A stretch of 64,000 nt of DNA. Source: Kutzneria kofuensis (GTDB taxonomy: Bacteria; Actinomycetota; Actinomycetes; Mycobacteriales; Pseudonocardiaceae). Below, in pieces: positions 3-11,730 of this stretch (position 1 is its first letter; each line of letters begins with the position of its first letter). A program made the translations under genes and the position numbers. Below the pieces are notes generated by a model. The model did no database searches, was not told the origin of the DNA, and was given only the letters and a program-made list of their open reading frames with translations. The stretch spans positions 8,496,038 through 8,560,037 of the forward strand of contig NZ_JACHIR010000001.1 of assembly GCF_014203355.1 (NCBI RefSeq). Direction: 5' to 3'.

Positions 3-350
3 GCGCAGGCGCTGCGCGGGATCGTGGTGTGCGGCTACTGCCTGAACGGGATGAAGACCATGCCCGACCGCACCGAGCTGCACCTGCTCATGGCGGTGGA
101 CGAGAGCCCGGCCGCGGCGGCGCTGCGGGCCCTGCCGCGGGCTTTCGTCGCTCGACGCCAGGAGGCGTCGGACGCCAGACGGACCACTTTGGACCACGTC
201 GCGACGCTGCGCGCGAGCCTGCCCATCGACCTGCCGGTCATTCGCGCGGCCGGCGCCCATGTGCCGACGCTGCGCGTCACCGCCCAGGTCGGCCGGTGGC
301 GGGCGGAGCGCGGCCTCGGGCCCGTCGACTGGGATCGGTCCGGCCTGTGA
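3..350 (+). CDS. 3' end of an unrecognised gene (N-terminus outside window)
   Basis: An open frame runs in from the left edge and stops at 348-350, giving the last 115 residues of a longer protein. I do not recognise the family. The visible part begins with a small hydrophobic patch (GIVVCGYCLNGM) and continues as a helical, Arg-rich tail with no catalytic motif I can name. An internal ATG at 51 or GTG at 24 could be misread as a start, but coding character continues upstream of both. Its stop overlaps the GTG start of the next gene (GTGA), so the two are probably translationally coupled and belong to the biosynthetic operon. Confidence 0.6.
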   Translation, partial: AQALRGIVVCGYCLNGMKTMPDRTELHLLMAVDESPAAAALRALPRAFVARRQEASDARRTTLDHVATLRASLPIDLPVIRAAGAHVPTLRVTAQVGRWRAERGLGPVDWDRSGL

Positions 351-1375
351 CCGACGGGCACGACCTGACCGGCACGCCCCGGCCCTGGCCCGCCGACGTG
401 GCCGAGCTGTGGCGGGACGGCCTGGCCGAGGCCAGCCGGGCCGCCTCGTGGGAATCCCGCCCGCCTTGGCGCGGAGTGCCCGCGCTGCGCGACGCGCTCG
501 GCCGCCTCGTCGACTTCGACCAGGCGGCCGAGTTCCTGGTCACCGGCGGCATCCGACCGCTGATCGGCGCGTTCGCGCTGACCGGCCGCCGGGTCGTGGT
601 CGAACGGCCCAGCTTCGAGGGCGTGGCGACCGCGTTCCGGCGCTGCGGCGCGCGGGTGCTGCGGGCGGACATCGACCAGGCGCTGCGGCTGGCCCGGCCG
701 GCCGGCGACCACCTGCTGTGGATCACCTCGCCGTGGCGCAACCCCGACGGCTGGAGCCTGGACCCGGACGTCGTCGAGCGGCTGGCCGACTTCGTGCGGC
801 GGGGCGGGATGCTGGTGCAGAACGAGACCTACCGCCTGTTCTCCCCGTCGACGTCCCCGGCGCCGGCGCGGGTGCCCGGCGCCTTCGTCGCCGGCTCCCT
901 CACGAAGGCCGCCGGCCCCTGGTCCCGGCTCGGCTGGCTGATCGCTCCCGCCGTGCCCGGTCCGGTCGAGGCGCACCTGCGTGCGTCCGCCCCGCCGACG
1001 CTGTGGCAGGAGGCCTGGGCGCTGTTCGCCGCCGCGGGCGGATTCGATCGGTTGGGCCGGCGGGCCGCGGCGGTGGGGGCGTTGACCGATCGCACGGCGG
1101 CGGCCCTCGGCGGCCCCGTGACCGGAGGGACGAGCCTGCTGGTCAGCGTCAACAGCTCCGACCCGGTTGCCTTGCTGCGCCGGCGTTTCGGTCTGCTCGT
1201 CGGAAGCGGCACGGACTTCGCGGCACCGAACACCACGGCACGGTTGTGTTTCCTGGGCTGCAGTCCGGAGTGCGACCATGTCGGGGTCGAGGCGCTGGTG
1301 CGCTCCGGAGCCGCCCGGATCGTCCATGGTGGACGGAAGGCCGGGCGGCCGCTCGAACGGGGCGGGGCGGCGTGA
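347..1375 (+). CDS. PLP-dependent aminotransferase-fold protein (class I/II) with altered cofactor Asp
   Basis: A 342-residue protein starting at the GTG that overlaps the upstream stop. A longer frame extends leftwards but is a shadow of the preceding gene. Fold type I hallmarks are visible: NPDG (N132, the NP[TD]G substrate loop), NETY at 159-162 where DxxY normally binds the pyridine ring, and SLTK with K187 as the likely Schiff-base lysine, followed by SRLGW. The residue that normally protonates the PLP nitrogen is Asp; here it reads Asn159. The family includes HisC-, CobD- and AspC-like enzymes and the exact reaction cannot be told. In context it may prepare or tailor the amino acid unit of the cluster. 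Its stop abuts the stop of the convergent gene at 1376. Confidence 0.8.
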   Translation: MTDGHDLTGTPRPWPADVAELWRDGLAEASRAASWESRPPWRGVPALRDALGRLVDFDQAAEFLVTGGIRPLIGAFALTGRRVVVERPSFEGVATAFRRCGARVLRADIDQALRLARPAGDHLLWITSPWRNPDGWSLDPDVVERLADFVRRGGMLVQNETYRLFSPSTSPAPARVPGAFVAGSLTKAAGPWSRLGWLIAPAVPGPVEAHLRASAPPTLWQEAWALFAAAGGFDRLGRRAAAVGALTDRTAAALGGPVTGGTSLLVSVNSSDPVALLRRRFGLLVGSGTDFAAPNTTARLCFLGCSPECDHVGVEALVRSGAARIVHGGRKAGRPLERGGAA

Positions 1376-1717
1376 CTACCGGGACACCAGCAGCCCGCCG
1401 ATCTCGAGCACGTCGTCGAGCAGCCGGCGGATCTGCTCGATCTCCGCCGGGGTGCAGTCGATGAGCACCTTGACCTCGGCGTCCCGCTTGACCGGGTCCG
1501 CGGTCACGAAGACCCCCACCACGCCGGAACCCGTCGCGCTGCCGCGGAACACGTCGATGGCGTGGCCGTCGCCGCCGGTCGTCCCGTCGAGATAGCCGTA
1601 GTCCACCGGATACACAGCCTGCGGCACCCGCGGATGCACGGAGTCCTTGGGACGGTCGACGGTCACCGTCGTCCCGGCCACCAGCGCGTCGAGGTTGGCG
1701 AAGAACGTCTCACTCAT
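1376..1717 (-). CDS. Short inorganic-pyrophosphatase-like protein
   Basis: 113 residues starting at ATG 1717. A longer frame to 1789 lies over the carrier-protein gene and is not needed. It keeps the soluble-pyrophosphatase-like pattern VDRPKDS..HP followed by YPVDYGYL and a GGDGHAIDVFRGS segment in place of the DGDPLDV metal site. It is about 50 residues shorter than typical family I pyrophosphatases and the Asp spacing is altered. It may hydrolyse the PPi released by the adenylating enzyme at 6318-7799, or a different phosphate anhydride, or be non-catalytic. It overlaps the carrier-protein gene by 8 bp (ACP stop inside its start region), so the pair is one transcript. Confidence 0.72.
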   Translation of the reverse strand: MSETFFANLDALVAGTTVTVDRPKDSVHPRVPQAVYPVDYGYLDGTTGGDGHAIDVFRGSATGSGVVGVFVTADPVKRDAEVKVLIDCTPAEIEQIRRLLDDVLEIGGLLVSR

Positions 1718-1961
1718 CCGCGCCCACCTTGGCCGCGATGAGGTCGACGATCCGTCGCACCGACCGGAAGTTCTCGAAGTCCAGCTCATCGTCCTCGAAG
1801 ACGAGGGCGAATCGGTTTTCCAGGCTCAGCGTCAGGTCGACGCTGCGCAGCGAGTCCAGGCCGTGGTACGTCAGGGGATCGAGGTCGCCGATGCGCCGCT
1901 CGTCGCCGAGTATCTGTTCGATCCGGGACCGCACGATCCCGGTTATCTCGTCTCGGTTCAT
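1710..1961 (-). CDS. Acyl/peptidyl carrier protein
   Basis: 83 residues starting at ATG 1961 after an AGG-containing leader; an upstream in-frame ATG at 2045 is unlikely. The protein is a four-helix carrier with the phosphopantetheine motif HGLDSL (Ser37) and an acidic C-terminal half. Single-domain carriers of this kind hold an amino acid or acyl unit as a thioester. Candidate partners in the cluster are the AMP-forming ligase (loading), the PLP decarboxylase and acyl-CoA dehydrogenase (tailoring) and the condensation-like protein (release or transfer). It is transcribed divergently from the condensation-like gene and shares a promoter region with it. Confidence 0.88.
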   Translation of the reverse strand: MNRDEITGIVRSRIEQILGDERRIGDLDPLTYHGLDSLRSVDLTLSLENRFALVFEDDELDFENFRSVRRIVDLIAAKVGADE

Positions 1962-2030
1962 CCGGTTGCCTTTCAGGAGATGGCGAACGGTCCGCCCAAG
2001 TCTATGCTGAGCGGCATCCGTTGCGCACCA

Positions 2031-2044
2031 TGCCATTTCTGGCA
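2031..2044. promoter_or_regulatory. Inverted repeat in the divergent ACP / condensation-gene promoter
   Basis: TGCCA-tttc-TGGCA lies about 70 bp upstream of the ACP start (1961) and 78 bp upstream of the condensation-like start (2122), nearly midway between them. It is a plausible operator for a shared regulator. The regulator is unknown; the cluster's SARP would be expected to prefer direct repeats instead. Confidence 0.35.
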
Positions 2045-2121
2045 ATCACACGGTTGATTCGATGCCGGCAGAACGGGATCGCACCGATCCGCCTGCGGCG
2101 TCCCGACCCACGAAGGCTGAC

Positions 2122-3507
2122 ATGACAGAGAGCACTGCCGCCGATCCGTCCCCGATCCCGCTCACGTTCGGCCAGGACCACGAGTTGCCCCTGGCGATGC
2201 GGACCGAGCCGCCGCCGAACGCGATCCAGGTCGCGGTGCGGATCGAGGGACAACTCGACGCCGACCTGCTCGCGCAGGCGCTGCGGCACGTGACGGCCGA
2301 CAACGACGGCCTCCGGATGCGGTTGCTGGACGGCACGATCTCCCGCGCCGCGGCCGCCGGGCAGGTGACGCTGCCCGTGCCGGCGGTGGATTCGCCCGAC
2401 CGGCCGCTGCTGGTGCGGCAGCTGGTGAAGGCCCGCGACGAGGACCAGTTCGGCTTGTACGTCCGCCGGCTGCGGGCGGTCAACAAGTCGCGGCAGTGGG
2501 ATCTCGTCCAGGGGCCGCCGTACGCGTTCCGGCTGCTGCGACTGACGGCCGATCACCACGCCTTCCTCGGCGACTTCTCCCGTTTCGTCCTGGACGGACG
2601 GGGGCGGGTGCTGTTCCTGACCCGCCTCTGGGACGCCTACAGCGCCCTCGCCTGCGGGCGGAAGCCGGCGCCGACCGGTGCTCCGGACGCCTTCACGCGG
2701 GCGGCCCGGCAGCAACGCGCCACAATGGACCGACGCTCGGCCACGGTCAACCATCGTTACTGGCAGGGAAAGTTCACGGCCTTGGGGGAGCGGCTCGCCG
2801 CCGCTGGTGGGCTGACCGAGGTGGGCACGCCCAGGAGTGTGATGGCGGCGACCACCGTGGCCCGGACCCGCTCTCTTCGTTTCCGGGGACGGACCCTGGC
2901 CGAGCTGCGGGCCGCGCACGAGCGCGCCGGTGCGTCGCTGTTCCAGTGGGTCCTCGCGGCCGCCGCGGTGGAGGTCTTCCGCCGATGGCCGGATCCGGTG
3001 CTGCCGATCTCCGTCCAGGTGGACACCCGGGACAGCGACGCGATGGCGATCGTCGGCCGGTTCTCCGTCAAGCTGCCGTTGCACCTGACCCGCGCGGACG
3101 ACGTGCCCGCCATGCTCCGGGTGATCAAGGCCGAACTGCTGCATGCGTTGCGGCACCGGCACATCTCCGAGGCCCACCTTCGAGGCGCGCGTGACGCGGC
3201 GGTGGCGGAAGCCGCCCCGTCGGCCCGTGCCGCCCTGCAAGCGGTCGCGCATCGCCGTGCGCTGACGGCCCGTCTCATGGACCATGACGGCGGCCTTGTC
3301 CTCCAGGCGGCGGGACTTCGGCTCGACAGCGCCGCCTATCCGCCGGCCGCGGACTACCGCCACGACGGGGTCGACATCTCGGTGCACCAGAACGCCGAGC
3401 GGGTCGTCGTCGCCCTCGCGCTGGACTCCAGCGAGTTCACCGACCGGGACGCCGACGACTTCGCGGCCGGGGTGGAGGCCCACCTGCGCCAACCGGTTTC
3501 CGTGTGA
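2122..3507 (+). CDS. Stand-alone condensation-domain-like protein
   Basis: 461 residues. ATG 2122 is chosen over the in-frame ATG 2062 because AAGG precedes it. The layout is that of an NRPS condensation (chloramphenicol-acetyltransferase-like) domain. An N-terminal half ends in DHHAFLGDFS (H145-H146), a linker follows, and the C-terminal half contains the DTRDSD and GRFSVKLPL segments that match the second half of the fold. The canonical HHxxxDG reads HHxxxGD here, while the second, catalytic histidine is kept. Condensation domains join two thioester-bound or amine substrates. With one carrier protein in the cluster, a likely role is transfer of a carrier-bound unit to the ribosomal peptide or to a free amine. 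It opens the operon that carries the precursor and exporter. Confidence 0.75.
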   Translation: MTESTAADPSPIPLTFGQDHELPLAMRTEPPPNAIQVAVRIEGQLDADLLAQALRHVTADNDGLRMRLLDGTISRAAAAGQVTLPVPAVDSPDRPLLVRQLVKARDEDQFGLYVRRLRAVNKSRQWDLVQGPPYAFRLLRLTADHHAFLGDFSRFVLDGRGRVLFLTRLWDAYSALACGRKPAPTGAPDAFTRAARQQRATMDRRSATVNHRYWQGKFTALGERLAAAGGLTEVGTPRSVMAATTVARTRSLRFRGRTLAELRAAHERAGASLFQWVLAAAAVEVFRRWPDPVLPISVQVDTRDSDAMAIVGRFSVKLPLHLTRADDVPAMLRVIKAELLHALRHRHISEAHLRGARDAAVAEAAPSARAALQAVAHRRALTARLMDHDGGLVLQAAGLRLDSAAYPPAADYRHDGVDISVHQNAERVVVALALDSSEFTDRDADDFAAGVEAHLRQPVSV

Positions 3508-3671
3508 TCCTCGCCGTCGATCGAACGAAGATCGCGTGTCGATCCCCGTCGACCATGCTTGTCGGCGGAGCGGGCGGACCGGCTGCACCGCGCCACCCGC
3601 CGATCCGCTCCGTCCATGGGCGTGACCCGTTCCAGTGGCACGTCCCCGATGTGGGAAGGAGTGATTTGCTG

Positions 3672-3770
3672 ATGGACAACTCCGAGGTCCTCGACATCCA
3701 GGAGCTGTCGGACGAGATGCTCGCCGAGATCGTGGGCGGCAGCGGTCTGACGATCAACAGCTGCATCTGA
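3672..3770 (+). CDS. Putative RiPP precursor peptide with double-glycine leader
   Basis: A 32-residue peptide starting at ATG 3672, with GGGAAGGAG at about 3654-3662 as ribosome-binding site; a longer in-frame reading from 3504 is an artefact. The N-terminal 23 residues are acidic and amphipathic (LDIQELSDEML) and end in AEIVGG, the double-glycine motif recognised by C39 peptidases. The remaining core is only nine residues, SGLTINSCI, with Ser, Thr and one Cys. The next gene encodes a C39 peptidase-ABC exporter, which strongly supports the assignment. No LanM, LanB, YcaO, radical SAM or lasso cyclase is visible, so the maturation must be different or encoded elsewhere. Confidence 0.82.
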   Translation: MDNSEVLDIQELSDEMLAEIVGGSGLTINSCI

Positions 3771-3791
3771 CCGGCCGCTGACGGCAGCGGG

Positions 3792-3822
3792 CAGCCGGGC
3801 GGCGGCAACGACCGTCCGGCTG
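3792..3822 (+). terminator. Weak hairpin after the precursor gene
   Basis: CAGCCGG at 3792-3798 pairs with CCGGCTG at 3816-3822 in the 127-bp gap between precursor and exporter. There is no T-run. It could act as a partial terminator or processing site that keeps precursor mRNA above exporter mRNA, as is common in peptide operons. Confidence 0.3.
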
Positions 3823-3897
3823 TTCCGCCGCTCGTGCGTGTCGATCACGATCACGCCCGGCCGCTGACCCGGTGTACCCGATGACGGAGTTCAGTTG

Positions 3898-6321
3898 ATG
3901 AGCACGATGCGAGACGGCGAGCGAGCCGTGCCGAACTCGGCCAACCCCCCGGCGCCCGTGTTCCGGGAGCAGGCCATGGCCGCCCGTGGCGCGGCCCGCG
4001 AACTGGGTGCTGCGGTGTCACCGGGATTCGCGCGGCCGGCGCGGACCAACTCGGATGATTCCGAGGGTGCGGCGGATCGGCCGCGCCGGTCCTGGCTGCG
4101 GGCCGGCTGGGACGCGTTGCGGGCGCGGCGTGTTCCCGTTCGCATCCAGTCGCAGGTCAGTGACTGCGGCCCCACGTGCCTGGCGATGGTGTTCGCGCTG
4201 CACGGCGTGGAGGTGCCGATCCGCGAGCTGCGCGAGGCCGCCGGCACCGGCCGCGACGGCGTCTCCGCCCGCCGGCTGCTGGACGCGGCGCGGGACCACG
4301 GCTTCCGCGGACGCGGTGTGCGGACCACATTGGACGGTCTGCGCGACCTGCCGGCGGGCGCCATCCTGTTCTGGAACTTCAACCACTTCGTCGTGCTGGA
4401 ACGGGTCGCCGGCCGGCACATCCACCTGGTCGATCCCCAGTACGGTCGCCGCCGCATGACCTTGGACGCCGTCGGTGAGGCGTTCACCGGCGTGGCGCTA
4501 CTGCTGAGTCCGCCGTTGCCCACCACAGGTGAGAAACCCTCGATTTTCGGCCTCCCCTTTCTGGCCAAGCTGGTGCACCGGCGGCGTGCGCGCCGGCCCG
4601 AGGGCTCGTGGCGCTATGCCCGCTACTTCCTGCCCGGCGATCGCCGCTGGATCCCGTTTGTCCTCTGTTCGTTGCTGCTGCTCGGCTTCAACCTCGCGAC
4701 GCCGCTGGTCACCAAGGCGGTCGCCGACCACGCCACCGGGGGCCGCACCGGCGGCACGGCCCTGTTCCTGCTCGGCGTCGCACTGCTCGCCGTCCTCTAC
4801 TTCCTGCTCCAGTTCGCCCGGTCGGTCGCCTTCGCGGCCATCCAGACGCGAGTCGACGAGGAGGTGACGACCGGCGTGCTGCACCGTCTGCTGGCGCTGC
4901 CCTACGGCTTCTTCGCCACCCGCGCGCCGGGCGACCTGATGCAGCGCGTGCGCACCAGCACCGCGGTGCGGCAGATCCTCTCGGCCACCGCGTTCACCAG
5001 CATGTTCGACGGCCTGTTGGTGCTGTTCTACATGGCCCTGCTGCTCCTGGCGGACCCGCTGCTGGCCGGTCTGGCCATCGCGCTGGCCCTCGCCCAGGTC
5101 GCGGTGCTCGTGCTGTCCTGGCGCCGGCAGGAATACGCCAGCGTCGACGCGCTGGAGGCCCGGTCGCGGGCCGACGCCGAGCTGGTCGAACTCCTCGAGG
5201 GCCTCAGCACGCTCAAGGCCGCCGGACTGGAGGACGTGGCCGCGCGCCGGTGGAGCCACACGCTGGCCGACGAGTTGAACGCGCGCACCCGCAGCCGCCG
5301 GCTGCTGGCCGTCTCCTCGGTGCTCAGCAGCGCGCTGCAGATCGCGGCCCCGCTGCTGGTACTCGTAGTGGGCTCCGTCCGCGTCGACGAAGGGCTGCTG
5401 TCCACCGGAGACGTGCTCGGTTTCAGCGTGTTGGCCATGGGCCTGCTGGTGCCCCTGGCCAATCTGGTGCAGACGGGTTTGCAGCTGTCCGGACTTGGCG
5501 CCTCCTTCGCCCGGCTAGGCGACATCATGGAGGCCGTGCCCGAGCGCGCCGCCCGGGACGGGGCGGCGGCCCCGACCGACCCGGACCCGGGCGGCGCGCT
5601 CAGCTTCGAGAACGTCTCGTTCGCCTATCCCGGCAGCGAACCGGTGCTCGACGAGGTCTCCTTCACCGTGCCGGCGGGCAGCTTCACCGTCATCCTCGGG
5701 GCGTCGGGTTCGGGCAAGTCGACCTGCGCCCTGCTGGCGGCCGGCCTGTACCCGGCCACCTCCGGGCGCGTGCGGGCTCTCGGCCGGGACCTGGCCCGCA
5801 CCGACACCGTGGCCTACCGCCGCTCGATCGCCTTCGTCAACCAGGACTCCCGGCTGTTCGCCGGCTCGATCCGCGACAACATCACCTTCGGCAGCACGGA
5901 CACCGACATCGAAGCGATCAAGACGGCCGCCCGGCTGGCCGAGATCCACCAGGACATCAGGACCCTGCCCCTGAAGTACCAGACCGTCCTGGGTTCCGGC
6001 GGCGCCGGGCTGTCCGGGGGACAGCGGCAGCGCGTCGCCCTGGCCCGGGCCCTCATGCGCCGGCCCGAGATCCTCATCCTGGACGAGGCCACCAGCGCGC
6101 TGGACCCGGCCCTGGAACGCCGGATCTTCCGCTCGCTGGTCGAACTCGGCACCACCCTGGTGGTCATCGCCCACCGGCTGACCGCCGTCGAGGAGGCGGA
6201 CCAGATCGTGGTCCTGGACCAGGGCCGGGTGGTCCAGCGCGGCCACCACCGCGACCTGGTCGCCCAGGACGGCCCGTACCGCTCGCTGACCCAACGCGAC
6301 GTCGCCCGGAGCGATGCGTGA
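3898..6321 (+). CDS. C39 peptidase-containing ABC exporter (bacteriocin-type processing transporter)
   Basis: 807 residues; ATG 3898 has GGAG at 3886-3889. After a 75-residue Arg/Ala-rich extension, the C39 peptidase shows QSQVSDCGPTC (C90), NFNHFVVL (H163) and LVDPQYG (D179), the catalytic triad. The transmembrane domain follows (about 230-500, several Leu/Ala/Val segments). The nucleotide-binding domain has Walker A GASGSGKST (K607), LSGGQRQR, ILILDEATSALD and IAHRL. Such proteins cleave leaders after GG and export the core. The substrate is very likely the peptide at 3672-3770 after modification. The long N-terminal extension before the peptidase is unusual. Confidence 0.93.
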   Translation: MSTMRDGERAVPNSANPPAPVFREQAMAARGAARELGAAVSPGFARPARTNSDDSEGAADRPRRSWLRAGWDALRARRVPVRIQSQVSDCGPTCLAMVFALHGVEVPIRELREAAGTGRDGVSARRLLDAARDHGFRGRGVRTTLDGLRDLPAGAILFWNFNHFVVLERVAGRHIHLVDPQYGRRRMTLDAVGEAFTGVALLLSPPLPTTGEKPSIFGLPFLAKLVHRRRARRPEGSWRYARYFLPGDRRWIPFVLCSLLLLGFNLATPLVTKAVADHATGGRTGGTALFLLGVALLAVLYFLLQFARSVAFAAIQTRVDEEVTTGVLHRLLALPYGFFATRAPGDLMQRVRTSTAVRQILSATAFTSMFDGLLVLFYMALLLLADPLLAGLAIALALAQVAVLVLSWRRQEYASVDALEARSRADAELVELLEGLSTLKAAGLEDVAARRWSHTLADELNARTRSRRLLAVSSVLSSALQIAAPLLVLVVGSVRVDEGLLSTGDVLGFSVLAMGLLVPLANLVQTGLQLSGLGASFARLGDIMEAVPERAARDGAAAPTDPDPGGALSFENVSFAYPGSEPVLDEVSFTVPAGSFTVILGASGSGKSTCALLAAGLYPATSGRVRALGRDLARTDTVAYRRSIAFVNQDSRLFAGSIRDNITFGSTDTDIEAIKTAARLAEIHQDIRTLPLKYQTVLGSGGAGLSGGQRQRVALARALMRRPEILILDEATSALDPALERRIFRSLVELGTTLVVIAHRLTAVEEADQIVVLDQGRVVQRGHHRDLVAQDGPYRSLTQRDVARSDA

Positions 6322-7799
6322 CGATGCGGGAACCGGTGGTGGGAAACGTCGTGGCCGTTCTCGACCAGGCCGCGGCGCGGCACGGTGCTCGCCCGGCGGT
6401 GAGAGACGCGACCGGGCGCTGGACCTGGGCCGAACTCGACCAGGCCAGCCAGCGCGTCGCTCGGGCGCTCGGAGCACGCGGCATCGGCCCGGGCAGCCGA
6501 GTCCTCTCGATCGCGCCGCCTGGACGGGACTTCGCCGCGCTGCTGTTCGGCACGATGCGCGCCGGCGCCAGCCTCATCCCGGCCCGCCCGGACGCCAGCG
6601 CTTTCGAGCTCGACCACATTCGCGCCGACGCCGCCCCGGCCCTGGTGGTCGGCAGCGACGACCGGCCGACACCGGCCGTGCCGGTGACCACGTTGCTGCG
6701 CCAGGGATCCGAGGACCGAAGCGGGCCGTCGCCCGCCGGTTCCCTGATAGCGGGCGACCAGGAGTGCCTGCTGCTCTACACCTCCGGCTCGACCGGCCGG
6801 CCCAAGGGCATCGTCTGCCCGCACGCGTCGGTTGCCTTCGCGGTGCGGGCGATCGGGGAACGTCTCGGCTACCGGCCCGACGACGTCGTCTGGAACCGCC
6901 TGCCGATGTGTTTCGACTACGGGCTCTACCAGCTGTTCCTGTGTGCGCTCGCCGGTGCGGAGCTGGTCACGCCGCCCGGCGTGATGTCCGCCGCCGAGCT
7001 CGTCGCGCTCCGCGAGGCCGGGGCCAGCGTGCTGCCGATCGTGCCGACCGCGGGTGACCTGTTGGCCCGCCTGGCCGTCAGGGACCGGCGGCCCACGAAC
7101 GTCCGCCTCGTCACGAACACGGGTGCGGCGCTGACCGGCCCGCTGGCCGAACGGGTGCGCCTGGCCTTCCCGGACGTCGCGGTCGTATGCATGTACGGCA
7201 TGACCGAGTGCAAGCGCATCACCATCGCCGATCCGGACGAGGACCTGGCCCATCCGGCCACCGTCGGGCGCCCGCTGCCCGGCACCCGCGTGCTCGTGGT
7301 GGACGCCGAAGGACGGAACCAGCCACCCGGCGCCCCCGGCGAGATCGTCGCCGTCGGCCCGCACGTGATGGCCGGCTACTGGAACAGTCCACAAGAGACT
7401 GCCCGCCGCTTCCGCCCCGCGCCGGACACCGGTGAGCCGGCGGTGTTCACCGGCGACCGCGGTTACCTCGATCCGGACGGACGCCTGTACTTCCTCGGCC
7501 GCGACGACGACGTCTTCAAACACCGCGGCTGGCGCATGAGCACCCTGGAACTGGAAACGGCGCTGCTGGACATACCCGACGTGCGCGCCGCCGCCGCATT
7601 GCCGCCCGACGCCGCCGGCACCCTGACCGTCTGGGCGGTCACCTCGCTGCCCGCCGACCACGTGCGCGACGCGTTGGCCGAGCGGCTGGGCGCCGCCCGT
7701 GCGCCGGACCGCTGCGTCGTGCTGCCCGAGCTGCCACAGACGCCCAACGGCAAGGTCGACCGGGCCGCCCTGCGTGCGTTGCGGGAGGCAGCGCCATGA
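6318..7799 (+). CDS. AMP-forming ligase / stand-alone adenylation enzyme
   Basis: 493 residues from GTG 6318, which overlaps the exporter stop and has GGAG six bases upstream; ATG 6324 is the alternative. Adenylation motifs in order: LLLYTSGSTGRPKG (A3), FDYGLYQLF (A4), MYGMTEC (A5), FTGDRGY (A7), GRDDDVFKHRGWR (A8) and PNGKVDR with the catalytic K479 (A10). The FDYG..QL and CKR-type A5 region resembles the acyl-CoA ligases that travel with carrier proteins and PLP decarboxylases in exosortase-A loci. It should activate a carboxylic or amino acid and load the carrier protein. Its stop overlaps the decarboxylase start by 4 bp. Confidence 0.88.
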   Translation: MTMREPVVGNVVAVLDQAAARHGARPAVRDATGRWTWAELDQASQRVARALGARGIGPGSRVLSIAPPGRDFAALLFGTMRAGASLIPARPDASAFELDHIRADAAPALVVGSDDRPTPAVPVTTLLRQGSEDRSGPSPAGSLIAGDQECLLLYTSGSTGRPKGIVCPHASVAFAVRAIGERLGYRPDDVVWNRLPMCFDYGLYQLFLCALAGAELVTPPGVMSAAELVALREAGASVLPIVPTAGDLLARLAVRDRRPTNVRLVTNTGAALTGPLAERVRLAFPDVAVVCMYGMTECKRITIADPDEDLAHPATVGRPLPGTRVLVVDAEGRNQPPGAPGEIVAVGPHVMAGYWNSPQETARRFRPAPDTGEPAVFTGDRGYLDPDGRLYFLGRDDDVFKHRGWRMSTLELETALLDIPDVRAAAALPPDAAGTLTVWAVTSLPADHVRDALAERLGAARAPDRCVVLPELPQTPNGKVDRAALRALREAAP

Positions 7800-9082
7800 C
7801 GCCGGCCGACTCTCCACGGGATGCCGACCTCGGTCTCGATCCGGCCTTGCTGGAGGACATCGCCCGCGACTACGGGACGCCGGCGTACGTCTACGACCTG
7901 GACGCCGTGCGGGCGGCGTACATCGCTCTCACCGCCGACCTCCCGCAGCCGAGCGACCTCCTGTACTCCCTCAAGGCCAATCCGCATCCCGCGGTGGTCG
8001 AGGCGCTCGTCGCCGTCGGTGCCGGGGCGGAAGTGAGTTCGAGCGGCGAGCTGGCCGTCGCACTGGCCGCCGGCTGCCCGCCCCGGCACGTGCTGTACAC
8101 CGGGCCCGGCAAGACCGCTGACGAGGTGCGGACCGCGCTGGCGGCGGGGGTCCGCCTGTTCTCGGTCGAGTCGCCCGGCGACCGTGCCCGCGTCGAGCAG
8201 GCGTGCGAACTGCTCGATGTCACCGTCGATGTCCTGGTGCGGCTGAACTATCCCCGGGCCAGCGCGGGCGGCTCGTTGCGGATGACCGGCCGCCCGACGG
8301 CTTTCGGCGTCGACGTGGGCGATGCCGGGGCGGTGACCGCGCTGCTGCGCCCCGGCCGGCGGGTGCGTCCGGTCGGCACGCACACCTTCTTCGCGACCAA
8401 CGTGGCGGACGAGCAGGACCTGCGCGCGGAGTTCCACAACGCGCTGGCCGTCGTCCGCGCGGTTGGTGGCGACGGTTTCGCGCCCACCGTGCTCGCTCTC
8501 GGCGGCGGGTTCTCCGCGCCCAACGCGCGGCCGGGAACCTTGCCGCGGTACCACAGCCTGCGGGCCGACCTGGCCGAGCAGTTGGACGTCGCCTTCCCCG
8601 CCTGGCGATCCGGCGTGCCGCGGGTGCTGTTCGAGTCCGGGCGCCACCTCACCGCCACGAGTGGCACGCTGCTGACCACGGTGCTGGACACCAAACGCTC
8701 AGGCGACCGCACCTTCGTCGTGCTCGACGCGGGCGTGAACGTGCTCGGCGGCATGACCGGCCTCGGCCGGCTGCGGGCGCCCGACGCCCAGGCCCGGGTG
8801 GTCGGCCGGACCGACCGGCCGGACGAGCCCGAGCAGCGGGTGACCCTGGTCGGCCCCCTCTGCACCCCGCTCGACGTGCTGAGCACCACGGCCACGATCG
8901 CCGCGCCGCGCCGCGGTCAGCTGCTGGCGATCCCCAACGTCGGCGCGTACGGCACGACCGCCAGCCTGCTCGCCTTCCTCAGCCGTCCGGCGCCGGTCGA
9001 GGTGATCGTCGACCACGGTGTGGTGCGGCGCGCGGAACGGCTCGTGCTTCACTCCGAGGAGGTACATCCCGATTCTCAATGA
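7796..9082 (+). CDS. Type III PLP-dependent decarboxylase (LysA/BtrK-like)
   Basis: 428 residues, starting in an ATGA overlap with the ligase gene. The alanine-racemase-type barrel shows YSLKANPHP (K60 as Schiff base), a glycine-rich phosphate-binding segment LALGGGFS, and GPLCTPLDVL (C356) in the C-terminal beta domain. Relatives decarboxylate diaminopimelate, ornithine or, in butirosin biosynthesis (BtrK), an amino acid held on a carrier protein. The neighbouring ligase and ACP make the carrier-bound reaction the best guess. The last codons lie on the junction with an IS110 element. Without the insertion the frame would run on to 10535, so the C-terminal tail may have been changed by the transposition. 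Confidence 0.88.
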   Translation: MTPADSPRDADLGLDPALLEDIARDYGTPAYVYDLDAVRAAYIALTADLPQPSDLLYSLKANPHPAVVEALVAVGAGAEVSSSGELAVALAAGCPPRHVLYTGPGKTADEVRTALAAGVRLFSVESPGDRARVEQACELLDVTVDVLVRLNYPRASAGGSLRMTGRPTAFGVDVGDAGAVTALLRPGRRVRPVGTHTFFATNVADEQDLRAEFHNALAVVRAVGGDGFAPTVLALGGGFSAPNARPGTLPRYHSLRADLAEQLDVAFPAWRSGVPRVLFESGRHLTATSGTLLTTVLDTKRSGDRTFVVLDAGVNVLGGMTGLGRLRAPDAQARVVGRTDRPDEPEQRVTLVGPLCTPLDVLSTTATIAAPRRGQLLAIPNVGAYGTTASLLAFLSRPAPVEVIVDHGVVRRAERLVLHSEEVHPDSQ

Positions 9083-10383
9083 AGTTGTCAAGATGAGAAC
9101 GTCAAGCAGCGTTTGCCGAGAGGGGCGGGACGAGTGCGTAGCAGCGGTCGTCGCGCAGCAGTGCCCACAGGACGTTGACGCGGCGGCGTGCCAGGGCCAG
9201 GACGGCCTGGGTGTGGCGCTTGCCCTCGGATCTCTTGCGGTCATAGAAGGTCCGCGACTGGTCGTTGCAGCCGATGCTGACCAGTGCGGAGGTGTAGAGG
9301 GCGCGTTGCAGGCCGCGATGGTAGCGGCGGGGTCGGCGCAGGTTACCGCTGACCCGGCCGGAATCGTGCGGTGCCGGGGCCAGGCCGGCGTAGCCGGCCA
9401 GGTGATCAGCGGAGGCGAACGCGGTCATGTCACCGCCGGTGGCCGCGAGAAACTCCGCACCGAGCAGCACTCCGATACCGGGCATGCTCAACAGGGTCGC
9501 GGCGTGTCGGTGCCGGCGAAACCGGCCCTCGATGAGCTTGTCGGTCTGCTTGAGCTGCTCATCGAGGGAGATCACTCCCTTCGCCATGTCCGCGACGAGC
9601 TGCGCGGCCAACTGCTCGCCGGGCAGCACGGTGTGCTGGGAGCTCGCCGCTGCCACGGCTGCGGCAGCCAGTGCGGCGGCGCTGCGGACTTTCTGCGACC
9701 GCAGCCAGTCCTCAAGCCCGCCAACTCCGAGCCGGCGGATGGCTGTCGGTGTCTGGACGTGGGTGAGCAGGACCAGCGGGCCGTGGTTGGTCAGGTCCAA
9801 CGCCCGTTCCAGGGCAGGGCTGATGCCCAACAATTGGTCGTGCAGCCGGTTGACCAGGCGCACGCGGTCACCGGCGAGGTCACGACGGCGCGCGACCAAC
9901 ATTCGCAACTCGACGATCAGTTCGTCGTCGACGCGCAGCGGGGACAGGTCCCGGCGCATGCGCGCCTGGTCGGCGATGATCGCGGCGTCTTTCGCGTCGG
10001 TCTTGCCCTCGCCCCGGTAGCCGCCGGCGGCGCGGTTGACCTGCTGGCCCGACAGGTGGACCACCTGCTGCCCGTGAGCGACCAGCAGCGCCAGCAGCAA
10101 CGCGGCGCCACCAGTACAGACGTCGACGGCCCAGCGGACCTGGTCGGCCAACGCGGTGATCTGGCCGATCAGCTCCAGCACCGCGGTCTCGTCGTTGACC
10201 ACCCGGCGCGACAGCAGCCGGACACCATCGGCGTCGATCACCACGACGTGGTGGTGTCCCTTGCCGATGTCCACCCCTGCCCACGCACGTTCCACTCGTG
10301 TCTCCCTGCTCTGACCAGCGTGTTCTCCCGTAGACGACCTCGCCGGCCTATCCCTACGCAGCGATCGGGTCGCAATTCTCAAT
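9072..10383 (-). mobile_element. IS110-type insertion element
   Basis: The transposase gene is flanked by two copies of ATTCTCAAT, at 9072-9080 and 10375-10383, which I take as the element ends. IS110 elements lack terminal inverted repeats and none is seen here. Family members insert through a short shared core guided by a bridge RNA encoded in a non-coding end. The 5' non-coding end here is about 80 bp (10296-10380). The element separates the decarboxylase from the acyl-CoA dehydrogenase gene and may weaken transcription of the latter. Confidence 0.75.
9102..10295 (-). CDS. IS110 family transposase
   Basis: 397 residues from GTG 10295 (GGAG-like sequence upstream); a longer frame to 10382 reaches the element end. 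The N-terminal DEDD/RuvC-like domain begins AGVDIGKGHHHVVVID and continues with a GKTDAKDA motif. The C-terminal Transposase_20 domain carries MPGIGVLLGAEFLA and a GLAPAPHDSG segment, with a Ser nearby in the GRVSGN context. Both domains are complete, so the enzyme may be active. Transcription opposes the biosynthetic operon. Confidence 0.93.
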   Translation of the reverse strand: MERAWAGVDIGKGHHHVVVIDADGVRLLSRRVVNDETAVLELIGQITALADQVRWAVDVCTGGAALLLALLVAHGQQVVHLSGQQVNRAAGGYRGEGKTDAKDAAIIADQARMRRDLSPLRVDDELIVELRMLVARRRDLAGDRVRLVNRLHDQLLGISPALERALDLTNHGPLVLLTHVQTPTAIRRLGVGGLEDWLRSQKVRSAAALAAAAVAAASSQHTVLPGEQLAAQLVADMAKGVISLDEQLKQTDKLIEGRFRRHRHAATLLSMPGIGVLLGAEFLAATGGDMTAFASADHLAGYAGLAPAPHDSGRVSGNLRRPRRYHRGLQRALYTSALVSIGCNDQSRTFYDRKRSEGKRHTQAVLALARRRVNVLWALLRDDRCYALVPPLSANAA

Positions 10384-10412
10384 CAGCGGCCGGGTCGTCA
10401 AGGAGGTGCCGG

Positions 10413-10535
10413 GTGGCCAATCGGAACAAGCCACACCAACCGCAGATGACTGAAAGCCACGCCCGGCGCCCCTGGGACCACTCGAACCCTACGACTGGCC
10501 CGAGCCGACCCAAGGAAGAAGGTAGGGATGGCTGA
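10413..10535 (+). CDS. Possible 40-residue hydrophilic peptide (or displaced decarboxylase tail)
   Basis: GTG 10413 lies six bases after a perfect AGGAGG (10401-10406). The frame ends at 10535, overlapping the next start in ATGGCTGA. The product is rich in Asn, Pro, His, Arg and Lys (begins VANRNKPHQPQ) and has no recognisable domain. If the IS110 element is removed together with one ATTCTCAAT copy, this frame is continuous with the upstream decarboxylase. It may therefore be the original C-terminal tail of that enzyme, now expressed separately or not at all. Confidence 0.4.
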   Translation: MANRNKPHQPQMTESHARRPWDHSNPTTGPSRPKEEGRDG

Positions 10536-11730
10536 CCGATCCGCCGTGCGCGTCCGGGACGCGCTCGAATCCCTCGACTCGCTCGTCCCGTTGCTGGCCG
10601 CGAACGCCGCGACCGTGGACCGGGAGGCCCGTTTCCCGGCGGAGAACCTCGATGCGCTGCGCGCCGCCGGTTTGCTCGGCCTGCTCGTGCCCGAGGACCA
10701 CGGCGGCCAAGGCCTCGGCCTGGCCGACCTGGTGACGGTCGCGCAGCGGCTTGCCGGGGGCTGCCTGTCCACGGCCATGATCCTGGCCATGCACTGCCAG
10801 CAGGTCGACGTCCTGGTCCGCCACGCCGGCCCGAGACTGCGGGCCGAGCTGCTGCCGCGGATCGCCGCCGGCGAGGTGTACCTGGCGTCCGTCACCACCG
10901 AGGCGGGGACCGGGGGCCATCTGCTCTCTGCGGACGCATCCCTCGAACGCGGGGGAGCGGACGGGGCGGCCACGGCCGAAGCGTCCATCCGGTTTCGCCG
11001 CGACGCGCCGGTCGTCACCGGCGCCGCCCACGCCGACGGGTTCCTGATCACCATGCGCGATGGTCCCGACCAGGGGGAGCACGCGGTGAGCCTGGTCTAC
11101 GCCGACCGGGCCGACCTCGACATCGAGCGCTACGGCGCCTGGAACCCGATGGGCATGCGGGCGACCGAGAGCGGCGCCGTGCGGCTGGCCGGGGCCATTC
11201 GCCCGGACCAGGTCGTCGGCCCGCCCGGCGGCTTTCGCGCCGTCGCCCTCGACAGCATGATCCCGGTGGGGCACCTGGCTTGGAGCGCCTGCTGGCTCGG
11301 GGCCGCGCGGGCCGTCTTCTCCGCCTTGGTGCGGCACCTGGCCCGCGACGGCCGAACCGACGTCGCCTCCCCGCTGGTGCGTGAGCGTGTCGCCCGGATC
11401 CGACTCGACCTGGAACTGGTGAGCGCCTATCTCGGGCGGGTCCGCGAGGAGGTCGAGCGGGTCCGGGCGCGGGCGGCTCCGTGCGACGCCCCGTCGCTGC
11501 AGATCCACCTCAACAGCCTGAAGATCGCCGCGTCCGAGTTGACCTACCGGGCCGTCGACCGGATGGTGCAGCTGGCCGGGATGTCCGTCGGGTACAGCGC
11601 CGACTCGGCGATCCCGCTCGAACGGGCCCTGCGTGACCTCCGCTCGGCCGCGCTGAACTACTCCAACGACCGCCTGTGGACCGCCACCGGCGGCCTGTGT
11701 CTGCTGGACCGCAAGGTCGAACTGCTGTGA
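10528..11730 (+). CDS. Acyl-CoA dehydrogenase family flavoprotein
   Basis: 400 residues. The N-terminal helical domain (ENLDALRAAGLLGLLVPEDHGG) and middle domain (ASVTTEAGTGG) are typical, as is the C-terminal helical bundle ending in ALNYSNDRLW. The usual catalytic Glu near YG.. is not obvious to me in the C-terminal domain, so the reaction may be dehydrogenation, oxygenation or something else. In carrier-protein pathways such enzymes oxidise aminoacyl or acyl thioesters on an ACP. The gene overlaps the small frame upstream by 8 bp and converges on the SARP gene. Confidence 0.85.
   Translation: MADRSAVRVRDALESLDSLVPLLAANAATVDREARFPAENLDALRAAGLLGLLVPEDHGGQGLGLADLVTVAQRLAGGCLSTAMILAMHCQQVDVLVRHAGPRLRAELLPRIAAGEVYLASVTTEAGTGGHLLSADASLERGGADGAATAEASIRFRRDAPVVTGAAHADGFLITMRDGPDQGEHAVSLVYADRADLDIERYGAWNPMGMRATESGAVRLAGAIRPDQVVGPPGGFRAVALDSMIPVGHLAWSACWLGAARAVFSALVRHLARDGRTDVASPLVRERVARIRLDLELVSAYLGRVREEVERVRARAAPCDAPSLQIHLNSLKIAASELTYRAVDRMVQLAGMSVGYSADSAIPLERALRDLRSAALNYSNDRLWTATGGLCLLDRKVELL

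Follow-up and report, generated by a model that had tools for sequence, protein, structure and literature searches.

To our knowledge, few hybrids of ribosomal peptides and carrier-protein products are known. Siderophore microcins have a long peptide with a Ser-rich tail that ends in Ser, and in microcin E492 the peptide has a GG leader and the enterochelin comes from carrier proteins. In goadvionins and selidamides, fatty acyl groups are transferred to a ribosomal peptide by GNAT-type acyltransferases. Here we analysed a 64,000-nucleotide stretch of the Kutzneria kofuensis genome (G000:C1:8496038-8560037, hereafter the window), which encodes a short GG peptide, a condensation-fold protein and a C39 peptidase-ABC exporter, together with a free acyl carrier protein (ACP), an adenylating ligase, a decarboxylase and an acyl-CoA-dehydrogenase-fold protein (ACAD). 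Our preferred interpretation, which we hold tentatively and consider nearly but not quite an even call, is that this locus belongs to an actinobacterial family of ribosomal-peptide/carrier-protein hybrids, of which 16 loci were collected, and that a carrier-bound acyl group is moved to the peptide, which is then exported. The constant module of the family consists of the GG peptide, the condensation-fold protein and the C39-ABC exporter, and variable carrier genes usually adjoin it, which suggests that the carrier-bound group is moved to the peptide before export.

As in siderophore microcins, a gene-encoded peptide would be combined with a small molecule and exported by a dedicated ABC transporter; in microcin E492, MceI and MceJ attach salmochelin to the C-terminal Ser 84 (PMC6071977). 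However, the cores of the present peptides measure only 5-15 residues, a condensation-fold protein is present and the hosts are actinomycetes. Bolagladin (BolO, BolC, BolN, BolQ) and vicenistatin (VinN, VinL, VinO) biosynthesis share with the window a ligase, a free ACP, a BtrK-like decarboxylase and an ACAD. There, the unit starts a non-ribosomal peptide synthetase (NRPS) or polyketide synthase chain, whereas in the window it would meet a ribosomal peptide, and the gene scan of the window's first 12 kb and left flank revealed no assembly line. In pearlins (3-thiaglutamate, ammosamide), a ribosomal peptide may likewise carry a growing small product (PMC9303977), but these systems use a PEARL and an amide link, whereas here a C39 exporter is present and LanB-type matches were absent. 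Acyl transfer to a ribosomal peptide would be shared with goadvionins and selidamides, the difference being the condensation fold and the GG/C39 system. Siderophore microcins, acylated ribosomally synthesized and post-translationally modified peptides (RiPPs) and pearlins are the nearest ideas. We found no description of such clusters in the open literature, searched at the level of titles and abstract starts and with subscription journals mostly outside its scope, nor any experimental work on the transfer or its product, and the system looks like an undescribed way to make and secrete peptide-small-molecule hybrids. The predicted features of the system in the window are as follows:

1710..1961, minus strand: stand-alone ACP of 83 aa (PF00550)
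2062..3507, plus strand: single condensation-fold protein (PF00668, 56.2 bits)
3672..3770, plus strand: precursor peptide of 32 aa (TIGR01847 bacteriocin_sig, 18.8 bits, cut-off 15.7)
3672..3740, plus strand: leader of the precursor, MDNSEVLDIQELSDEMLAEIVGG (TIGR01847; homologous leaders in 15 other loci)
3741..3770, plus strand: predicted 9-residue core SGLTINSCI, with Cys penultimate, and stop codon
3895..6321, plus strand: C39 peptidase-ABC exporter, 808 aa from a TTG start (PF03412, PF00664, PF00005)
6324..7799, plus strand: adenylating ligase, VinN-like (closest solved relative 3wvn, E 2.7e-106)
7796..9082, plus strand: pyridoxal phosphate-dependent fold III decarboxylase, BtrK/VinO-like (7ru7, E 6.7e-45; 2j66, E 1.5e-43)
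10528..11730, plus strand: ACAD (PF02771/PF08028)

Family models place all genes named in an earlier sequence-only reading of this DNA (peptide, C39 exporter, condensation-like protein, ligase, decarboxylase, ACAD, ACP, and pyrophosphatase-like and aminotransferase genes) where that reading had put them.

Recurrence of the module and its precursor peptides

With the window condensation-fold protein alone, no relatives were found in the GTDB contigs. A search of 298 genomes of the order gave 27 genomes with a match at E ≤ 1e-8, and the top match outside the window's own genome was located in G197 (2.5e-25), where a ligase (44%), a carrier and an exporter (48%) adjoin the condensation protein. 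In 396 genomes of the phylum, a C39 domain query led to G638, and an exporter-profile search of 295 Streptomyces genomes gave the G705 locus (L267). A profile of three C39 domains matched 587 stretches of the GTDB contigs, 439 of which were confirmed; the best 80 were kept and 13 of these were annotated (L151-L162, L175). The best 12 C39-profile loci are all actinobacterial, and each combines the peptide, the condensation protein and the exporter (12/12). The family set therefore comprises the window, L033/L117 (G197), L148 (G638), L151-L162 and L267 (G705), with hosts that include Streptomyces, Kitasatospora, Kutzneria and Actinoplanes.

The peptide, the condensation-fold protein and the C39 exporter are each present in 16/16 loci. 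Within the fetched regions, a carrier protein was found in 14/16 (all except L151 and L153), and a ligase likewise in 14/16 (all except L153 and L161, the region of which stops at the contig end). The carrier and ligase profiles were built partly from these same loci, and Pfam confirms both proteins in the window, L152 and L159. Because L148, L151-L162 and L267 were chosen by their exporter only, the presence of the condensation protein and of the peptide in 14/14 of them is independent of selection; L033 was chosen by its condensation protein. As controls, we used 25 C39 exporters from outside the clade (L118-L137 and L270-L274, two regions of which end at contig ends), and these showed a condensation domain once (L125, in an NRPS-size protein), a carrier once (L135) and a ligase once (L125). 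The neighbour of this non-clade exporter at L125:7515-13050 is a 1075-aa protein that combines condensation and adenylation domains.

In this set of 295 Streptomyces genomes, the same five are selected by the exporter profile (E < 1e-60) and by the condensation profile (E ≤ 1e-136), and the next condensation-profile match after these is only a 1995-aa frame (1.1e-46). Four of the five genomes (all but G705) had contributed sequences to the condensation profile and one had contributed to the exporter profile; scoring covered the 5-10 best candidates of each genome (five for the condensation profile). In all nine clade II loci (L154-L159, L161, L162 and L267), the exporter stop overlaps the predicted start of the condensation-fold gene by 13 nt. 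The sequence-only reading had named the recurrence of short GG peptides with its gene set as support, and peptide and carrier-protein genes do recur together in the 16 loci; it and had regarded homologous clusters without the peptide as evidence against itself; none of the 16 lacks it.

The precursors measure 30-37 residues, and a leader that ends in GG and shows the hydrophobic/acidic pattern is present in 16/16. The leaders are conserved and share the pattern DIxxLSDExLDDIVGG. TIGR01847 matches 5 of the 15 scanned members at E ≤ 1, and the library models that match the peptides are mostly leader or bacteriocin models. A purine-rich stretch precedes the peptide in the window and in 15 further loci. 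When four whole genomes were scanned with a peptide profile (in three of them, part of the first-look candidates was scored), only the locus copies were found at E ≤ 0.1. The G197 peptide, obtained by profile search, lies 6.8 kb downstream of its exporter, and L155:9269-9751 (Kutzneria sp. CA-103260) contains three identical precursor copies in a row. The cores are unconserved and range from PNACQ (5 residues) to SATVPYGCCIVLDGC (15 residues). Cys is present in 14/16 cores. In 13 of these there is one Cys, at position 2 to 5 counted from the C-terminus, and the L157 core contains three; the cores without Cys are VGAVPAGAKVS (L152) and DAPNVPYQTS (L153). Four of the 16 cores end in Ser, and that of the window ends in Ile. 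The C39 Gln, Cys, His and Asp and the Walker residues are intact in 16/16 exporters. A conserved leader and a variable core beside candidate modifying genes, the hallmark of RiPPs, are thus present in the 16 loci, and the condensation-fold protein is the only candidate core-modifying gene found in all of them.

The core length of 5-15 residues would also suit a signal, and the window peptide weakly matches the pheromone family ComC (15.8 bits, cut-off 20.4). In that case, the peptide would be an exported putative signal that shares its regulation with a neighbouring carrier pathway making a separate molecule. We consider this improbable, since the condensation-fold protein occurs in 16/16 loci, adjoins the peptide or the exporter and forms a clade of its own. 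Most cores, variable in other respects, have a Cys close to their end, and this is compatible with yet another scheme, in which this Cys or a nearby residue serves as the starting material: it is modified on the peptide, receives a group supplied by the carrier enzymes and is eventually excised as a small molecule. Pearlins provide a precedent (PMC9303977), and a JmjC-type protein, a candidate hydroxylase of peptide or cargo, is encoded in 5/9 clade II loci (L155-L159; PF08007 by Pfam in L155 only). However, tblastn with two LanB queries, which Pfam identifies as lantibiotic dehydratases, and with one LanC query (likewise checked with Pfam; LanM was not queried) gave no match in any of the 16 loci, and the GG site together with the intact exporter protease residues points to export of the core, which makes such a scheme quite improbable.

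Cargo genes and the putative acyl donor

In L151, the closest relative of the window, the counterparts of the condensation (31%), exporter (60%), ligase (63%), decarboxylase (55%) and ACAD (60%) genes all lie in one run. Other loci have PhyH- and HAD-like genes (L148), an ACAD and a class III aminotransferase (L152), a Rieske protein (L160), or AurF-, transglutaminase- and transketolase-like genes (G197). It might be that the window peptide is an ordinary class II bacteriocin and that the carrier genes next to it form an unrelated beta-amino-acid cassette, as decarboxylase relatives at E ≤ 1e-30 occur in 60/298 genomes of the order and, among the neighbourhoods listed, L068, L080 and L084 have a ligase, an ACP and an ACAD beside the decarboxylase. 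Nevertheless, the same gene set in one run in L151, and the different carrier genes at the same place in most other members, make this very improbable.

The window ligase aligns over residues 22-486 with 3wvn, which we take to be VinN. By manual count on the alignment, it has Asp, Thr and Arg at the positions of VinN D230, S299 and R331, so that D230 and R331 are kept and Ser299 is not. D230 and R331 are selectivity residues of VinN (PMC7756342). The TECKR motif of VinN-like ligases is found in the window and in L033. The closest solved relatives of the decarboxylase, 7ru7 and 2j66, are named BtrK. With its free ACP, the window has a VinN/BtrK-type set. The ligase and decarboxylase match known enzymes by which an acidic amino acid is attached to a carrier and decarboxylated there; the sequence-only reading had suggested loading of an amino acid on the ACP and its decarboxylation and/or oxidation. 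For bolagladins, it is proposed that BolO (VinN-like), BolC (ACP), BolN (BtrK-like) and BolQ (ACAD-like) convert aspartate to dehydro-beta-alanine, and when bolQ is deleted beta-alanine replaces dehydro-beta-alanine (PMC7756342). In the vicenistatin pathway, VinN is reported to attach 3-methylaspartate to the carrier VinL, where VinO then decarboxylates it (PMC11284099).

In the window, the VinN-like ligase may load aspartate, or a near relative, on the ACP through the side-chain carboxyl, and the BtrK/VinO-like decarboxylase would convert the ACP-bound amino acid to a beta-alanyl-type thioester. Provided that the ACAD is expressed in spite of the IS110 element inserted upstream, it could desaturate this to a dehydro-beta-alanyl-type thioester. 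Judging from the sequences, our best guess for the cargo of the window and L151 is a beta-alanyl-type thioester, possibly desaturated. A further decarboxylase of the same family, 47% identical, is encoded elsewhere in the window's genome (G000:C1:6807180-6808361).

The condensation-fold protein and the proposed transfer

In a tree with 8 NRPS condensation domains, the 16 condensation-fold proteins form one clade (support 100/100). The HHxxxDG site of the window protein reads S-R-F-V-L-D-G, the catalytic His being replaced by Arg. Over the 16 loci this column reads R, A, Q, Q, A, H, H, N, Q, N, N, N, N, N, N, S, and the His is kept only in L152 and L153; it is present in 8/8 NRPS controls. The Asp of the motif is kept in 16/16. 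This mapping agrees with the HMMER alignment to PvdL. A conserved HHAFL was rejected as the HHxxxDG motif, as the alignment with PvdL and the eight NRPS domains puts the motif eight residues later. An AlphaFold2 model of the window protein, based on 13 sequences, reached a predicted local distance difference test score of 83.0 and a predicted template modelling (TM) score of 0.82. In a Foldseek search with this model, the best E-value was obtained for the teicoplanin X-domain 4tx2 (3.9e-24), and ordinary condensation domains were almost equal in score, several with higher TM-scores. X-domains of glycopeptide synthetases share the condensation fold, but have lost the catalytic His and have a non-catalytic role. 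They are also domains of NRPSs, whereas the present protein is free and tied to a peptide and an exporter.

Such a non-catalytic, X-domain-like fold could act as a scaffold that recruits tailoring enzymes, the exporter or the precursor to the carrier. The peptide and the carrier product would still belong together, but the chemistry and the site would differ. This is the main rival to our preferred interpretation, although we rate it as unlikely. The loss of the catalytic His in 14/16 members, the top Foldseek E-value and the overlap with the exporter gene in 9/9 clade II loci argue for it, whereas the nearly equal scores and in several cases higher TM-scores of ordinary condensation domains, the two members that keep the His, and the stand-alone, uninterrupted fold in 16/16 loci argue against it.

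The loss of the His fits Cys as acceptor, because a deprotonated thiol needs no general base. L152 and L153, the two members that keep the His, are also the two without a core Cys, a match that would arise by chance in 1 in 120 cases if rows were independent. We regard this His/Cys correspondence as a lead rather than proof. In the preferred, transfer-based interpretation, the condensation-fold protein would bring the ACP and the precursor together, and the core, most likely through its Cys thiol, would receive the acyl group. The C39 domain would then cut after GG and the conjugate would leave the cell. We infer the amino acid used, the acyl transfer and the transfer site. The sequence-only reading had likewise proposed that an amino acid is loaded on the ACP and then joined to the peptide before export; this is supported in part, by the recurrence of peptide and carrier-protein genes and by the enzyme matches, but joining by a canonical condensation reaction is not supported, as the catalytic His is missing in 14/16 members.

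Several observations weigh against acyl transfer from carrier to peptide. We know of no product of these clusters. L151, despite its close relationship to the window, has no carrier protein in its 20.6-kb region, and both carrier and ligase are absent from L153. Because the His is gone in 14/16 members and the top Foldseek match is an X-domain, the condensation-fold protein may not catalyse anything. The His/Cys match comes from L152 and L153, which belong to a single three-member clade; two changes are required on the tree to account for it, and a single one is not excluded. Moreover, a common target cannot be seen in cores as divergent as these. As to the cargo, the L151 ligase showed no TECKR motif, and although the beta-alanyl group of bolagladins is thought to be N-acylated before desaturation (PMC7756342), no enzyme for such an acylation was identified at the window locus. 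Finally, the combination of ligase, decarboxylase and ACAD is common only to the window and L151, so a beta-alanyl cargo cannot hold for the whole family.

If the preferred interpretation is correct, there is a compact hybrid family with a recognisable signature, i.e. a 30-37-residue GG peptide, a condensation-fold protein of its own clade and a C39 exporter, so that the family can be mined and tested directly, and at each locus the precursor is small enough for direct in vitro work. The condensation fold would be found to serve a new acceptor or to have a new non-catalytic function, and the family could reveal a route by which thioester-made small molecules are exported on a peptide tag. A bolder idea, which we consider rather unlikely, is that each short Cys peptide serves as a gene-encoded thiol carrier for single use, with the small molecule handed as a thioester to the core Cys and exported via C39. 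The peptide would then be an export ticket rather than a toxin, and peptide, condensation-fold protein and exporter would form a secretion module of general use, to which various carrier pathways have been added.

Neighbouring genes and the left flank

Three further features are found within and beside the gene set of the window:

347..1375, plus strand: aminotransferase-fold protein of 342 aa (PF00155, 56.7 bits)
1376..1717, minus strand: short pyrophosphatase-like protein of 113 aa (PF18823, 22.1 bits with cut-off 26.8, and PF00719, both below cut-off)
9102..10382, minus strand: IS110 transposase (PF01548, PF02371)

The pyrophosphatase-like gene overlaps the carrier-protein gene (1376..1717 and 1710..1961, both on the minus strand). 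The ligase starts 2 nt past the exporter stop, and the ligase and decarboxylase genes share 4 nt. The shared operon including the ACAD that had been proposed from the sequence stands as far as the presence of the genes is concerned, but the run to the ACAD is interrupted by the IS110 transposase, which lies between decarboxylase and ACAD. The element extends at least to 10527 and has eight other near-full-length copies in the genome (69% over 9145-10527), with no further copy above 69% over most of its length; a search for repeats around it gave no result of use. Since the decarboxylase and ACAD genes are direct neighbours in L151, the insertion may reduce ACAD expression. The aminotransferase and pyrophosphatase-like genes had also been listed with the locus. 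Neither gave a tblastn match in the 15 other loci, and both were dropped as core parts; the aminotransferase is probably not part of the conserved system.

The 20 kb to the left of the window (L002) contain two SARP-like regulators (identified by Pfam in one case and by eye in the other), a phosphotransferase, an HprK-like protein and a phosphorylase, as well as B12-radical-S-adenosylmethionine (radical-SAM) and radical-SAM/SPASM genes at 11-14 kb from the window edge, and thymidylate-synthase-family, deoxyribosyltransferase-family, ThiD-like, ThiO-like and cytosine-deaminase-like proteins. An NTP_transf_5 nucleotidyltransferase gene lies in this flank close to the window. L151 and G197, which besides the window are the loci that encode a VinN-like ligase, each have such a gene as well. 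When the three proteins were combined into a profile, it gave no match in the other 13 clade loci or around the 25 control exporters. Because of this recurrence in L151 and G197, the cluster probably begins to the left of the window. A known RiPP synthetase just left of the window, which the sequence-only reading had named as a finding that would speak against it, was not borne out. The radical-SAM genes were rejected as the peptide's synthetase in view of their distance of 11-14 kb from the edge and their weak matches elsewhere, which were limited to L161 (B12 type, 29%) and L154 (SPASM, 26%), each 4-5 kb from the peptide. At L002:6077-17493, approximately 2.5-14 kb left of window position 1, the radical-SAM/B12-SAM, thymidylate-synthase-family, nucleoside-deoxyribosyltransferase-family, ThiD-like, ThiO-like and cytosine-deaminase-like genes stand side by side, and this group, which presumably resembles bacimethrin-type genes, looks like a separate modified-pyrimidine cluster. 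Similarly, YcaO, TfuA and radical-SAM genes, a 302-aa protein without Pfam match and a 52-aa open reading frame beside the G197 locus (L033:2655-6910) possibly constitute a separate RiPP cluster.

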